Below are positions 3,274 to 41,309 of a DNA stretch of 41,309 nt, piece by piece. The first letter of the stretch is position 1, and each line of letters begins with the position of its first letter. The translations under genes and the position numbers were made by a program. Below the pieces are notes generated by a model. That model made no database searches, was not told the origin of the DNA, and worked only from the letters and a program-made list of their open reading frames with translations. The DNA comes from a virus, in the IMG/VR virus record IMGVR_UViG_3300021182_000103, positions 1-41,309 of that record. One strand, 5' to 3'.

Positions 3274-3987
3274 TTAAAAAATATCAACGGTAGATCATTT
3301 CGGTTTATTCGCTTCTTGAAATTTACTCTTAGTTTTTGCAACTAACGCTGCAAGATTATAGTATAAAGACTTGCAAGAGGTTGTTTTTGTGACATTGTAC
3401 TCATCTGTATTCTCTAGGATAACTTTTATGAATCAATGATAGTCTCAGTTGAATCCAGTTATCTTATCGAGCTTTCATTTTAGGAGGTTTCAGTATATTC
3501 GATTCTCTGAGTGTGTTCAATCTATTGTTCCATGAAATTCTTTTATAGTGGAAATAATTGCATTTATATCTTTGTTTCCAAATTCTTCTGGAATTTCTAA
3601 TGATTTATCTTCTTCTTTAGAAGAATTATTATTAGTTATATTATTAACTATATTATTATGTTTAAACTTTCCTTTATGAGGGTCATAAACTTTTGTTTGC
3701 GAGGGTCATAAACTTTCCTTTATGAGGGTCATCAAGATTCTTTTATTACCTTCCTCATATTTTATCTCACTAGATAGGTATCATTTTTTGATAAGAGATG
3801 AAATAACTTCACTTACTCTTACTTTAGATATTCCGAAGAATTTAGAAAAATAATCATTATTAGCAAAACATCATTTTTCATTATTAAGGCTATCTATCTC
3901 AACATAAAAAACTTTTTCTTGTAGTGTTAAGTCTGTAGATAACCATATTTCTTTTGGAATCCATATTCCTTTAAAATCTCTATCCAT
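3274..3987 (-). CDS. replication initiator / replisome organiser
   Basis: 237 residues. Residues 1-100 form a winged-helix replication-protein N-terminus (GIWIPKEIWLSTDLTLQEKVFYVEI, then FSKFFGISKVRVSEVISSLIKKGYL), as in phage and plasmid initiators with a helix-turn-helix head. A low-complexity linker (HNNIVNNITNNNSSKEEDK) leads to a C-terminal helical domain. The linker DNA contains three tandem 23-bp repeats and an AT-rich tract, the lambda-O arrangement of an origin inside the initiator gene. Expression is probably set by the promoter at 4135 and the structured leader at 4008-4100. Nine UGA codons. Confidence 0.8.
3618..3732. repeat. iterons plus AT-rich tract, candidate origin
   Basis: Three abutting 23-bp repeats (3664-3686, 3687-3709, 3710-3732). 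The outer two are identical and the middle one differs at about six positions; all end in GAGGGTCAT on the plus strand. Next to them, 3618-3663 is almost pure A/T. Iterons beside a melting region inside an initiator gene is the classic lambda-type origin layout. Confidence 0.65.
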
Positions 3988-4007: not shown

Positions 4008-4100
4008 ATAAAAACCCCCATATAGTCGTGAGTATTATATGGGGGAGTCTATGTTCTTGCAGGTAAAGAAAAGCTCACGACTTCTTATCTTTACCTGCAA
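4008..4100 (-). ncRNA. rep leader: kissing hairpin plus intrinsic terminator
   Basis: On the minus strand, a 13-bp hairpin (arms 4088-4100 and 4057-4069) is followed by an intrinsic terminator (10-bp stem 4036-4045/4015-4024, then TTTTT), ending about 20 nt before the rep ATG. The first loop contains GTCGTGAG (4074-4081) and the terminator loop contains CTCACGAC (4025-4032), perfectly complementary over 8 nt. The layout suggests an attenuator in which loop-loop pairing, or a trans-acting RNA competing for it, controls readthrough into rep. Confidence 0.75.
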
Positions 4101-4134
4101 GGCGGAATTTTAGAGTTCTGTTGAACCTGCAAAT

Positions 4135-4161
4135 ATTATATATAAATATTCCAAATTGCAA
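4135..4161 (-). promoter_or_regulatory. rep promoter TTGCAA-15-TATAAT
   Basis: TTGCAA (4161-4156), 15 bp, TATAAT (4140-4135) on the minus strand. The predicted start near 4128 puts the whole structured leader in the transcript. Confidence 0.75.
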
Positions 4162-4172
4162 AATTATTTTTT

Positions 4173-35156: not shown

Positions 35157-35603
35157 TTATTCTACGTCTACATATTCTACAAACTGTTTGTAGAAATCTC
35201 GGTAATTTTCTTGGTATTTTGTCTGGATTACATTGTGTACGCTGACTTTCTCTTCGCTATTCTTATGAGTTTTCATCATTACATCTCGCTCACAATATTT
35301 AGCGACTAGCCATTCTCAGGCGAAAAATTGTTTTACTCGCTTTCTAGGCATCATCCAAGCAGCTCAAGCCCTGTAGATGAGTCAAAACCATTGTAGCTTT
35401 GCCATCTCCGCGTACTGACTAGAGGTAAGACCTATTTTGTTTCTCTCGATCACATTGGTATTATTCTTGATACAGAATTTCCAAATCTTCGAGAGTATTC
35501 CGACAAATTTTTGGTTGAAATAGTTGTAATATATAACGTGTTTGGCATTACAATGCTCACACATATATACTTTCTGTTTCTTTGTTTCTTCGAGTGTTAT
35601 CAT
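35157..35603 (-). CDS. phage protein with N-terminal zinc site (148 aa)
   Basis: VYMCEHCNAKHVIYYNYFNQKF then WKFCIKNN at the start; a CxxC with a downstream Cys could bind zinc. Rest helical (SSQYAEMAKLQWFGLIYRAGAAW). Three UGA codons join the halves. It resembles a phage hypothetical family seen near replication genes; not named. Confidence 0.55.
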
Positions 35604-37045: not shown

Positions 37046-37099
37046 AGTAAAAAATCCCCATCATTTTATAGCACAACCGCCAAGAAGTAAATGATGAGG
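37046..37099 (-). terminator. intrinsic terminator after HNH-A
   Basis: 11-bp stem (37089-37099/37056-37066, one G-U pair) with a ~22-nt loop and a T7 run on the minus strand. The loop (37074-37086) is complementary at 12 of 13 positions to 37133-37145 at the end of the HNH-A coding region. Confidence 0.8.
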
Positions 37100-37122
37100 A
37101 CTGAGAACAAGTCTCGTGGTCA

Positions 37123-37653
37123 TTATATTTTTTTCTTGGCTGTTGCAAATTTAAATTTCCATACGAATCATCAAGCGGAATTATAGTGTTCCTTACTTCT
37201 GCAACATTGTGATATTTGTGTTGCAGATATTCACAGATTTTTTTCTATCTCTCTACCACATGACCACTCTGATATAAAGTTTCATTCCATATCAAACTGG
37301 AGTATAGATATTCTTTGCTTGTTATCTCGTCATTTCTTAATCATATCATCCATATTATCCTTCATCGTTCAAACAAATATGTTATCCTCTCTATTGTTTG
37401 TTTTATCATCGTCTTTGTGACAAGCACATAGTTTTTTATTATTTGCATCCATTCGGTGAAAAACAATAGCAACTATTCTATGTATTCCTATTGGTTTATG
37501 TTTTTTATTCTTATAAAGATTCACATATAAATATCAACCAGTTCATATTCATGGAGACATAATTTTGTTTATATAATAACTCTTTATGTTTCATTCGTTA
37601 GAGACTTGGTAGAGTCATTCATATCACGGGATATCTTTCCAAATTTCATTCAT
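37123..37653 (-). CDS. NUMOD4-HNH homing endonuclease A
   Basis: 176 residues. NUMOD4 start MNEIWKDIPGYEGLYQVSNEGNIKS; HNH region GIHRIVAIVFH...CACHKDDDKTNNREDNIFVG (a variant with Cys in place of the usual VNH); NUMOD1-like DNA-binding end ISILQFDMEGNFISEW...LGISATQISQCC. UGA encodes the motif glycines. It has its own promoter, structured leader and terminator, so it is a self-contained homing unit. Sister copy at 39001-39540. Confidence 0.85.
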
Positions 37654-37760
37654 AAAAACCCTATATTTAGAGGATAAAAGCGTGTTTGTTCAGAACGATC
37701 ATATTATCTATGATTTGCTATTATCCCCTTAATACAGGGCTGAATACGAAAGTTCTGAAC
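37654..37760 (-). ncRNA. structured leader of HNH-A (attenuator)
   Basis: The transcript is predicted to start near 37760. Its first nine bases (GTTCAGAAC, 37752-37760) are complementary to GTTCTGAAC (37688-37696) in the loop of a 23-bp terminator-like stem (37727-37749 with 37659-37681, 21 of 23 paired). The stem ends in TTTTT followed directly by the ATG. A small inner hairpin (ATCATA/TATGAT) lies in the loop. About 70% identical to the HNH-B leader, with compensatory changes in both pairings. Confidence 0.8.
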
Positions 37761-37766
37761 ACCTGT

Positions 37767-37793
37767 ATTATATGATTTTTTTATGATATTCAA
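37767..37793 (-). promoter_or_regulatory. HNH-A promoter TTGAAT-15-TATAAT
   Basis: TTGAAT (37793-37788), 15 bp and TATAAT (37772-37767). It overlaps the last codons of the exonuclease gene. Confidence 0.75.
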
Positions 37794-38989
37794 GTTATTT
37801 CTTGGAGAAAATCCAAATAAGATTCAGTTCCTCAGAAAAAATCGCTGAGGTTAGGTAAAAACTTAGAATCATTTACATATAAAAGATTCAGTTGGTTCAA
37901 AAATCTCTTATAAATTTCTAAACACATAGGATGAATATATTTTTTCTGTTCGAAATCAATCACGATCTTCTTGCAGGTTTTACCCATTTTTAGAATTCAC
38001 ATTTTGACCAACATATCAGTTTTTATAGCATTGGTCATATAGCGGTCGTATTCGAGTCAATTTGCGTCCATGAGAGCGTTTAATTCTGCTTGGAGTAACT
38101 TTGGTGCCGTCGCCTCTCAAGTCTTCACCTCATTGAAAATAAAGCGTTTGACGGGCCTTCCGAGTTCTGCCTCAAGTGCTATCTTGTAAAATCCTGCCTG
38201 CATTTCGTATGCTGGAAAAATTGTGTCCTCTTCGCTTGATAGTTTTTCCTTGAATTTATGATCGATCCCGACAATACTTTCTCAGTCTTCATCGAGAGCA
38301 GCGACATCTATCTTTGCTTTTAGAGGTAGTGGCATATCGTTTCCTTCTTCGTCTTTGAAGAAAGTAAAGATATCCATTTCAGCCGCGATAATTGATAGGT
38401 CGTCTTTATTATCTATGAAGTTACAGATCCCTTTGTCGATCCGGGACTCAGCATCTTCTACTACATTTTCTTTCTTGAGCCATTCTACATATCGGAATCG
38501 TGATTCAAGACCTTTTTCTACGTCTATCTCGTCGATTTCCTTCTTGGTGAGTCCATAGTTCTCTGCAAGTTCTTTCTTGTCGTTCAGGAGCTTTTCTATC
38601 TCATCCAGAACAGTATAGATACTGACCTTCTTCCCGATCATCATTTCCTCTTCTGTAAGAGTTGGGATAACGAAGTCTGGAATCTTTGTGCCTTCTCGCC
38701 ATTTATTGTACCCATTGTGGATTGCTCCGACTACTTCATCGAAGAATTTTTGCTGGGCAATAGAGAACATTGCTTCCGGGATGTACATACCAGTATTGAT
38801 TGCCTCTTCTACTCAGGCGTGGCATGAAACTCAAATAAGTTGTGCCAATCCTTTTTCATCGTTGAAGTCGTGTCTTATGTATCACTTGAAGAACAATTGT
38901 TGATCTGCTGACCACTGCCTTATACATGAATAAGAAACATGACGTATTGGTAATAAATCCGCATCACCTCTACTTATAACATTTGTCAT
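37781..38989 (-). CDS. PD-(D/E)XK exonuclease (RecB/Cas4-like)
   Basis: 402 residues. N-terminal VSYSCIRQWSADQQLFFKGYI and GVSCHAGVEEAI match the RecB-family entry (S-x-S-x-I ... H-x-x-V-E). The nuclease core is LPLKAKIDVAALDEDGESIVGIDHKFK (D, then D-H-K) followed by AYEMQAGFYKIALEA (Q-x-x-x-Y). Together with Bet this makes a lambda Red-like recombination pair: resection of dsDNA ends, then annealing. Eleven or so UGA codons. Separated from bet by the HNH-B unit. Confidence 0.8.
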
Positions 38990-39000
38990 AAAAAATAATA

Positions 39001-39540
39001 TTAAATTATAAATTTCCATTTAAATCAGCCTATTGTTGAATGTAATCAGTGACAGCAAGCATTCATATTCGTAACACTTATATTTAGTTCTCTTCATGCC
39101 TCTGTGCAACTAGCCCATTCTCTTATAAACTCTCAATCTTTAGTCATTTGAATTATTGGTTTGCTTCATGGATTATCCTTTCAGAAAACTCATTTATACG
39201 GATGGTGAGTTTGAAAATTACTTACTCTTCCGAGATATTTATATGAATGTTTATGATTTTCACTAGCATTACACCATTCAAGATTTTCTAAGCGATTATT
39301 TTGCTTATTTCAGTCCTTATGATTCACTTGTGGTTTGTTTTCTGTATTTTTGATGAATGCTTGTGCGACTAATCGATGAATACTAAAATGTTTTACTATA
39401 CCAAAGAGACATAAACTAACCCTAACATATCAAAACCTACCAACATCTTTACATAGAATTCTATCTCCAGATTTTACATTTCATAGGTTACTTACTTGTT
39501 TTCATGGATATCATTCGATATCCTTCCAAATTTCATTCAT
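39001..39540 (-). CDS. NUMOD4-HNH homing endonuclease B
   Basis: 179 residues: NUMOD4-like MNEIWKDIEGYPGKQVSNLGNVKS, classic HNH SIHRLVAQAFI...[32 protein letters not shown], then NUMOD1-like IIQMTKDGEFIREWAS...LNISVTNMNACC. The glycine of NHKDGN, almost invariant, is UGA. It lies exactly between bet and the exonuclease without breaking either one. First 19 nt match those of HNH-A with one change, and the leader is homologous. Confidence 0.9.
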
Positions 39541-39650
39541 AAAAACCCTATATTTAGAGGATAAAAGCGTGTTTGCTTAGAACGAATCACACTATGTGAG
39601 ATTTGCTCTTATCCCCTTAATACAGGGCTTGATTATGATTCTTTCTAAGC
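39541..39650 (-). ncRNA. structured leader of HNH-B (attenuator)
   Basis: Same architecture as the HNH-A leader. The predicted 5' end (GCTTAGAA, 39643-39650) pairs with TTCTAAGC (39575-39582) in the loop of a 23-bp stem (39605-39627 with 39546-39568), then TTTTT and ATG. The kissing pair and the inner hairpin (TCACA/TGTGA) differ in sequence from HNH-A but keep pairing. Confidence 0.8.
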
Positions 39651-39656
39651 ACCTGT

Positions 39657-39684
39657 ATTATATAGATTCTTATGGCTTTTGCAA
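39657..39684 (-). promoter_or_regulatory. HNH-B promoter TTGCAA-16-TATAAT
   Basis: TTGCAA (39684-39679), 16 bp and TATAAT (39662-39657) immediately downstream of the bet stop codon. Confidence 0.75.
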
Positions 39685-40957: not shown

Positions 40958-41233
40958 ATTTATTTTTCAAGAAAAGAAAATTTCTTTAATATTCTGATAA
41001 TTACTTTTCTTATAAAAATGTCAATTTTGCTATATTTACGTGATTCCTTCATCCAATTTATCAGTATCATATTTCAATCACAAAAATGTTTTTGAACAAT
41101 ACGCATAGTGAATAGTGAAGAGTAAAACCAGTGGTCAGTGAGCATTGGTCAGTAAAGCCCCGCTCTGCTGATTTTTCATATTGAGCATCGTCAGCGTGCT
41201 TATGCTTTTTCCTGGGATGACAAAGGAGGCCCC
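40958..41233. other. intergenic region, no phage gene seen
   Basis: AT-rich up to about 41090, including a GAAAATTTC inverted repeat near 40975, then increasingly GC-rich. I find no supportable ORF or RNA here. The composition change in 41100-41200 may mark the end of phage sequence. Confidence 0.5.
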
Positions 41234-41309
41234 ATGGACAACCGCCTCTCCATCACTACGCTTGCCAGCCGCGAGGTTTATCGCAACCACTGGATGCGGG
41301 TGCGCGAGG
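41234..41309 (+). CDS. start of a NUDIX-hydrolase-like gene, cut by window edge
   Basis: MDNRLSITTLASREVYRNHWMRVRE follows the N-terminal pattern S-R-x-V-Y-x-N-x-W-M-x-V-R-E of proteobacterial-style NUDIX hydrolases. A strong AAAGGAGG ribosome-binding site precedes the ATG, and GC is high. Both are foreign to the rest of the window. Only 25 codons are visible. Confidence 0.55.
   Translation, partial: MDNRLSITTLASREVYRNHWMRVRE

Follow-up and report, generated by a model that had tools for sequence, protein, structure and literature searches.

What two closely similar stretches of DNA do directly upstream of two homing-endonuclease-like genes of one phage is the question raised by this locus. 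The window, by which we mean the entire 41,309-nt virus record analysed here, encodes on its minus strand, in this order, RecT, leader B, HNH-B, an ORF without assignment, leader A, HNH-A, and YopX (Table 1). The long genes of this strand form open reading frames only if TGA encodes glycine, an apparent recoding as in the Gracilibacteria/SR1 code (table 25). HNH-B matches Pfam NUMOD4 (1.2e-8) and HNH_3 (3.7e-10), passing both cut-offs, as well as the PHROG_59 HNH endonuclease; HNH-A passes for NUMOD4 (5.6e-14) and scores 19.8 for HNH_3, below the cut-off of 24.8. The locus therefore contains the NUMOD4 plus HNH domains of a free-standing homing endonuclease cassette. The two proteins are 41% identical, and the leaders plus first codons share about 85% DNA identity. 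A promoter of the type TTTGCAA-15/16-TATAAT is repeated before several phage genes (1550-1592, 36558-36600, 40926-40968, and 39657-39685, all on the minus strand). The segment from about 41160 to 41309 is G+C-rich in a window that is otherwise A+T-rich. The protein whose start it encodes looks unrelated (MDNRLSITTLASREVYRNHWMRVRE), and the segment is possibly a chimeric contig end.

Table 1. Features of the window, in the direction in which its minus strand is read
Feature	Position	Strand	Basis
Source sequence, 41,309 nt			IMG/VR virus record
RecT	40880-39690	-	Pfam 4.6e-32
Leader B -35 box TTGCAA	39679-39684	-	Consensus scan, 10/12 with TATAAT, spacer 16
Leader B -10 box TATAAT, overlaps arm a	39657-39662	-	Consensus scan
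Leader B arm a AATACAGG, partner a' CCTGTATT; overlaps -10	39652-39659	-	Sequence
Leader B kissing strand x GCTTAGAA, at predicted transcript start	39643-39650	-	Sequence
Leader B long-stem 5' arm (y) AGCCCTGTATTAAGGGGATAAGAGC	39605-39629	-	MFE fold
Leader B inner hairpin TCACA-TAG-TGTGA	39587-39599	-	Sequence
Leader B kissing strand x' TTCTAAGC	39575-39582	-	Sequence
Leader B long-stem 3' arm (y') GCTTTTATCCTCTAAATATAGGG	39546-39568	-	MFE fold
Leader B U-tract UUUUU, adjoins AUG	39541-39545	-	Sequence
HNH-B, NUMOD4 + HNH_3 homing-endonuclease-like protein, 179 aa (TGA=Gly)	39001-39540	-	
ORF without assignment, 412 aa	39019-37781	-	
Leader A -10 box TATAAT, weak -35 TTGAAT upstream	37767-37772	-	Sequence
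Leader A arm a AATACAGG	37762-37769	-	Sequence
Leader A kissing strand x GTTCAGAAC	37752-37760	-	Sequence
Leader A long-stem 5' arm (y)	37717-37741	-	MFE fold
Leader A inner hairpin ATCATA-GATAA-TATGAT	37698-37714	-	Fold
Leader A kissing strand x' GTTCTGAAC	37688-37696	-	Sequence
Leader A long-stem 3' arm (y')	37659-37681	-	Fold
Leader A U-tract before AUG	37654-37658	-	Sequence
HNH-A, NUMOD4 protein with divergent HNH motif, 176 aa (TGA=Gly)	37123-37653	-	
YopX	37030-36614	-	
Third leader promoter TTTGCA-16-TATAAT	4135-4162	-	
Third leader hairpin I, 14-bp stem CTTGCAGGTAAAGA/TCTTTACCTGCAAG, loop strand AGTCGTGAG (4074-4082)	4056-4101	-	
Third leader terminator hairpin CCCCCATAT-[AATACTCACGACT]-ATATGGGGG + UUUUU	4015-4045	-	
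Replication initiation protein, non-HNH, behind third leader	3274-3987	-	PHROG_270 7e-17

The original prediction described a long stem, an inner hairpin, and a kissing pair in each leader; these lie on the minus strand where it had placed them, and its sequence statements are right apart from small corrections. The long stem (CCCUGUAUU.A.AGGGGAUAAkAGC / GCUUUUAUCCUCU.A.AAUAUAGGG, then directly UUUUUAUG) is about 22 bp long and ends in GGG-UUUUU directly before the AUG, like an intrinsic terminator. Both leaders fold far better than dinucleotide shuffles (z of -5.75 for B and -4.47 for A), none of 200 shuffles being as good. A terminator scan, which expects about equal site numbers in shuffles, does not call A or B because their loops exceed its rule. 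The -10 box of each leader overlaps arm a, which is not part of the main stem, so that the predicted transcript starts almost exactly at x; the promoter of leader A is absent from the list of the consensus scan. In a constrained fold of leader B, arm a and arm y' compete for a'.

Comparison of A and B bears out most of the covariation originally predicted. The kissing pairs are GTTCAGAAC/GTTCTGAAC in A and GCTTAGAA(A)/(G)TTCTAAGC in B: pairing is kept at 9/9 positions in A and 8/9 in B, where the ninth pair is lost (A-G). Two columns change on both sides from A to B, column 2 from T-A to C-G and column 4 from C-G to T-A, and one further change is single-sided. Swapping x and x' between A and B weakens the duplexes from -11.1 and -9.3 to -4.7 and -4.4 kcal/mol. 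The inner hairpin likewise contains one double-sided change (TCATA/TATGA versus TCACA/TGTGA), although B has extra bases and the arms stay in register only with a gap for this insertion. The U-U of the long stem in A is, as claimed, a G-U in B. By a rough estimate, the chance of two matched double changes is about 0.01, and covariation from two copies is suggestive, not decisive.

Two copies alone being weak evidence, we collected relatives, namely tblastn-confirmed NUMOD4-HNH loci from IMG/VR and GTDB genomes. In a ranking of crossing helices upstream of starts (first script), A, B, L012, and L009 came out on top, and a promoter-anchored scan showed that numerous other HNH starts, entirely dissimilar in sequence, have the same order (promoter, x, y, x', y', start). 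The common layout consists of a promoter, the 5' strand x located a few bases downstream of TATAAT or of the Bacteroidota-type TATATTTG, then y, x', y' plus a U-tract, and the start codon. It occurs in Bacteroidota-type, Firmicutes-type, and TGA-recoded phages, host groups being assigned from promoter type and a few named phages. Among matches not chosen for a U-tract, y' commonly ends in a run of at least 5 T in 8, against a background of 7.5%; the tract measures just five in A and B, and some leaders (L009, L160) lack it. At two loci (L010 and L011), a candidate group I intron 3' core, recognized by resemblance, stands directly before the HNH gene; the window has no Rfam match to a group I intron.

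Five distinct leaders with Bacteroidota-type promoters (L214, L180, L160, L143, and L240) could be compared column by column. We took x as bases 13-23 after the start of TATATTTG and x' as the 11 bases ending at CCTTT; because both strands were placed by flanking anchors, complementarity had no role in their placement. MAFFT alignments (A3 and A4) shift some helices by one base, and pairs were therefore counted by script on the anchored segments. Each leader has 11/11 pairs in cis, while swapped pairs average 8.05; with Watson-Crick pairs only, the values are 10.2 in cis and 5.9 swapped. Double-sided changes occur in 8 of the 11 columns, several of which pass through three pair types. These leaders strengthen the original argument that compensatory change reveals RNA structure, and among the further homologous leaders there is no copy in which x and x' change independently. 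The x:x' pairing is thus well supported.

The layout is strongly associated with HNH genes. When a U-tract, a score of at least 38, and a -10 box before x are required, it precedes 17 of 212 distinct HNH starts, whereas elsewhere in these loci the rate is 0.06% (1726 places). Dropping the requirement for a promoter raises the HNH figure to 26/212, the rate being about 0.6-0.9% in shuffles and at other positions. A fairer control restricts the comparison to genes whose start has 90 nt or more of intergenic DNA. Here, a score of at least 46 is reached by 13 of 103 HNH-like genes and by 1 of the 419 others; at 42 or above there are 16 HNH-like and 3 other genes (Fisher p 1.5e-9, after two misfiled HNH genes were moved, for sequences that are related and not phylogenetically independent). 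The thresholds were tuned on the first examples, and controls were scored at the same thresholds. The majority of the sampled NUMOD4-HNH genes are without a leader.

The prediction had treated the leader as a feature of HNH genes, which holds for its enrichment but not as an exclusive association. In the window, the gene of a replication initiation protein stands behind a third leader (Table 1), a non-HNH gene is preceded by one of the two leaders of the cultured Flavobacterium columnare phage FCOV-F56, and in phi19:1 a leader stands before the gene next after an HNH gene. We therefore regard the leader as a regulatory device that is far commoner on HNH genes than on others. In the window, 34 of the 38 gene starts score under the cut. 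A leader of the YopX gene (37030), with a score of 49, was left out of the count because its x sits between the -35 and -10 boxes. At 37053-37149 (-), behind HNH-A and upstream of YopX, lies a terminator whose loop and the HNH-A gene's 3' end are complementary; as the upstream strand sits between promoter boxes, this may be chance. Three 23-base repeats stand head-to-tail at 3663-3744, within the replication initiator gene.

In some leaders, x lies in the loop of a small hairpin of its own (hairpin I), so that x:x' would be a true loop-loop kiss with the terminator-like hairpin. These are L314, L336, L281, L188, L157, L320, L323, L173, FCOV-F56, and the third leader, whose hairpin I has the top score of the window. 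There, the terminator loop strand CTCACGACT (4024-4032) is complementary to the hairpin I loop over 9 bases, and the kissing duplex has an energy of -13.3 kcal/mol. The two leaders of FCOV-F56 (locus L409, MT585310) are at 35385-35507 and 38630-38702. The leader of CDS 35508 is the clearest kissing-loop case: free-energy folding alone yields hairpin I (9 bp) and hairpin II (13 bp) with a z of -5.14, and their loops are complementary over 9 bp (GUAGAGAGC/GCUCUCUAC). The HNH-gene leader of this phage is 95-100% conserved across 65 Flavobacterium phage records; the HNH gene itself is annotated merely as hypothetical. Hairpin I is clear in a Bacteroidota-type subset and the third leader but not in L012-type leaders, and it was rejected as a universal feature, a score of at least 10 being found in 12 of 30 leaders versus 21% expected, only a modest enrichment.

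Different loops had also been proposed to make each unit self-specific. Loop energies within two genomes are consistent with this: in the window they are -8.6 to -13.3 in cis and 0 to -4.5 in cross combinations, and in FCOV-F56 they are -10.2 and -13.9 in cis and -2.8 and -3.4 in cross. However, near-identical leaders of about 85 nt precede clearly different HNH proteins in four contigs (L012 at 1899-1979, L204, L391, and L393), and self-specificity can thus hold per genome at most. The proteins behind these four leaders differ along their whole sequence, that of L204 being 48% identical to that of L012, and A and B show the same tendency, with leaders more alike than proteins. From this we infer that the leader and first codons are a module exchanged between endonuclease genes.

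As to function, we favor, at roughly even confidence, the explanation that the leader is a cis-acting attenuator whose terminator-like hairpin loop is bound by the 5' end of its own transcript. The leader RNA would be part of a promoter-leader-gene cassette, with transcription beginning at strand x or a few bases upstream. Downstream, hairpin y:y' runs into a U-tract and then the start codon; it is built like an intrinsic terminator and carries x' in its loop, where x pairs with it, as a kissing loop if x is in its own hairpin and otherwise as a pseudoknot. The x:x' helix would form once x' is made, ahead of y', and would compete with or reshape the terminator hairpin; it may in this way set the share of transcripts reaching the endonuclease gene, a share presumably kept low or timed. 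What was directly observed is that the strands pair and covary, that the elements lie close to a promoter and a U-tract, and that they are enriched before NUMOD4-HNH genes. In A and B, a U-tract comes immediately after a stable hairpin in front of the gene, as in an attenuator with an intrinsic terminator, and the third leader also fits (CCCCCATAT/ATATGGGGG plus U5). On this reading, y:y' would terminate transcription in vivo.

The direction of the effect may differ between leaders. Our preference is that x:x' would favor read-through over termination, because in the L012/L204/L391/L393 and L132 leaders the helices are too tightly linked to fully coexist. In L012-type leaders, x directly adjoins the 28-bp y stem (0 nt apart); with no linker, both helices cannot be complete, and x:x' would act there as an antiterminator. 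In A, B, and most Bacteroidota-type leaders, loop lengths permit both helices together, so that simple exclusion cannot be the universal rule; in these, x:x' could instead stabilize the hairpin.

The main rival to attenuation is translational occlusion, which we consider possible but on the unlikely side. In this case y:y', ending 5 nt before the AUG, would block the ribosome, and x:x' or a:a' would open the stem. The stem lies inside the ribosome footprint in A and B and about 10-20 nt from the AUG in many Bacteroidota-type leaders, and T4 I-TevI, segB, and Aeh1 mobE are held back by leader hairpins that sequester the ribosome binding site (PMC2988022). Arm a (AATACAGG) of A and B could capture a'; because it overlaps the -10 box, only read-through transcripts would carry all of it, and in constrained folds the a:a' state is 7 (A) and 4 (B) kcal/mol higher than the closed state. 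This phage, however, does not appear to use Shine-Dalgarno sequences, a similar sequence being found at 1 of the 36 non-HNH gene starts in the window (38 starts in all), and there is thus no ribosome binding site available for sequestering. Moreover, the U-tracts, and in some leaders A-tracts, suit a terminator better, and in Firmicutes-type leaders (L012, L169) the Shine-Dalgarno sequence is outside the stem.

We judge it unlikely that the leader is instead an independent and stable small RNA, bounded by a promoter and a terminator of its own and protected at its 5' end in the pseudoknot, that possibly acts in trans while the gene is expressed by leaky read-through. A promoter, a length of about 85-110 nt, and a terminator-like 3' end would suit such an RNA, as would the essentially identical leader of four contigs with differing HNH proteins, and a side group of the leaders belongs to an Rfam sRNA family, int-alpA. 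Yet the distance from U-tract to start codon is often 5-20 nt, the spacing of a leader and not of two genes, and, as the loop sequences are freely variable, no conserved trans target is evident.

A DNA-level role is very improbable. The inverted repeats would then be an operator or recognition site of the HNH protein and the RNA pairing incidental, in the manner of the autorepressor I-TevI, which binds an operator overlapping its own promoter (PMC2988022). A and B do share leader and first codons in front of proteins of limited identity; the changes, however, follow pairing, G-U included, two crossing helices and a U-tract are unexpected in an operator, and non-HNH genes are preceded by the same layout. 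Least probable of all is a nascent RNA of the put type, which would bind RNA polymerase and confer resistance to downstream terminators. This would fit a compact structure right behind a phage promoter and has a precedent in HK022 putRNA (PMC9378689), but it does not fit the leader's own terminator-like hairpin or the lack of conserved sequence across groups outside helices.

We also suggest, tentatively, a general and undescribed class of phage leader RNAs whose 5' end forms a kissing interaction with the loop of an intrinsic terminator located immediately upstream of the start codon. This class would be defined by topology and have diversifying loops, each copy in a genome answering only to itself; its users would be homing endonucleases, along with certain replication or early genes, of phages that infect Bacteroidota, Firmicutes, or TGA-recoded candidate-phyla bacteria. 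As the same layout occurs in unrelated letters before such genes in viruses of different bacteria, the self-kissing layout is probably a common, undescribed expression switch. A class defined by topology and not by sequence would be invisible to Rfam, and sequence and covariance searches miss it because kissing strands and flanks differ completely between groups. Blastn of the L012 and L214 leaders against named phages gave no match, and a search for the DNA pattern CCTGTATTAAGGGGATAA gave none either; the pattern CAAACACGCTTTTATCC has 5 matches in IMG/VR, about the chance level for 17 bases, and those recovered by leader blastn align over that core only. A functional RNA class can be shared by layout alone, and a topology-based search may reveal many more such leaders. 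The control of free-standing homing endonucleases beyond T4-like phages is little studied, and these leaders offer a recurring regulatory design, open to mutation and present in cultured Flavobacterium columnare phages.

We compared the leaders to known RNA families and regulatory systems. No Rfam family is found at gathering thresholds in the whole window, and nothing credible appears for A or B at E<=10 around the leaders; among open-licence papers, T4 work included, we found no description of the self-kissing layout. HDV-like and pistol ribozymes, which have a similar x-y-x'-y' strand order, were rejected as candidates, since the absence of an Rfam match, the long variable linkers, and the freely varying sequence all speak against them.

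One of the closest known systems is int-alpA RNA (RF02996, threshold 35.8 bits), which is found directly upstream of NUMOD4-HNH genes at L403 (705-774, 47.6 bits), L396 (1414-1480, 46.2), L116 (916-979, 35.9), and, below threshold, L407 (711-774, 31.2). The leaders of L009, Dulem virus 33, and Flyfo siphovirus Tbat2_3 are int-alpA RNAs above the gathering score, phage D6E matches below it, and L264 and L094 share the core motif. Like the leaders described here, int-alpA precedes NUMOD4-HNH genes, and its x:x' outer stem starts right after TATAAT; it differs in a conserved core, UAGGGUnGCnCCCGAnAAG, between x and x' and in two nested hairpins. A, B, Bacteroidota-type, and L012-type leaders are without this core and have no match to the model. 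RF02996 also gives no match at 20 further HNH leader loci, and we therefore do not file A and B under int-alpA. This RNA, so far only a candidate sRNA, gains a genomic context as an HNH-gene leader.

HK022 putRNA likewise gives a phage transcript a structured 5' end; it acts on polymerase, suppresses distant terminators, and is without a terminator of its own, whereas the leaders here carry a terminator-like hairpin. T4-type leaders, too, are RNA structures directly upstream of phage homing endonucleases. They have an embedded promoter that limits expression, as the leaders here may have, and their promoters are placed so that late transcripts miss the 5' half of the hairpin (PMC2988022). They are, however, single hairpins that sequester a Shine-Dalgarno site, whereas those described here have two crossing or kissing helices, a terminator-like second hairpin, and sequences unrelated between groups, and this phage uses no Shine-Dalgarno sequences. 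Sequestration of the T4 type was rejected for this phage: an AGGG lies in the stem, but 35 of the 36 other starts are without such a site.

In plasmid attenuators of the pT181/pIP501 type, loop-loop pairing controls an intrinsic terminator of the leader, and the partner is an antisense RNA supplied in trans. The leaders described here would share the control of a terminator by loop-loop pairing, with the difference that the partner is the 5' end of the same transcript.
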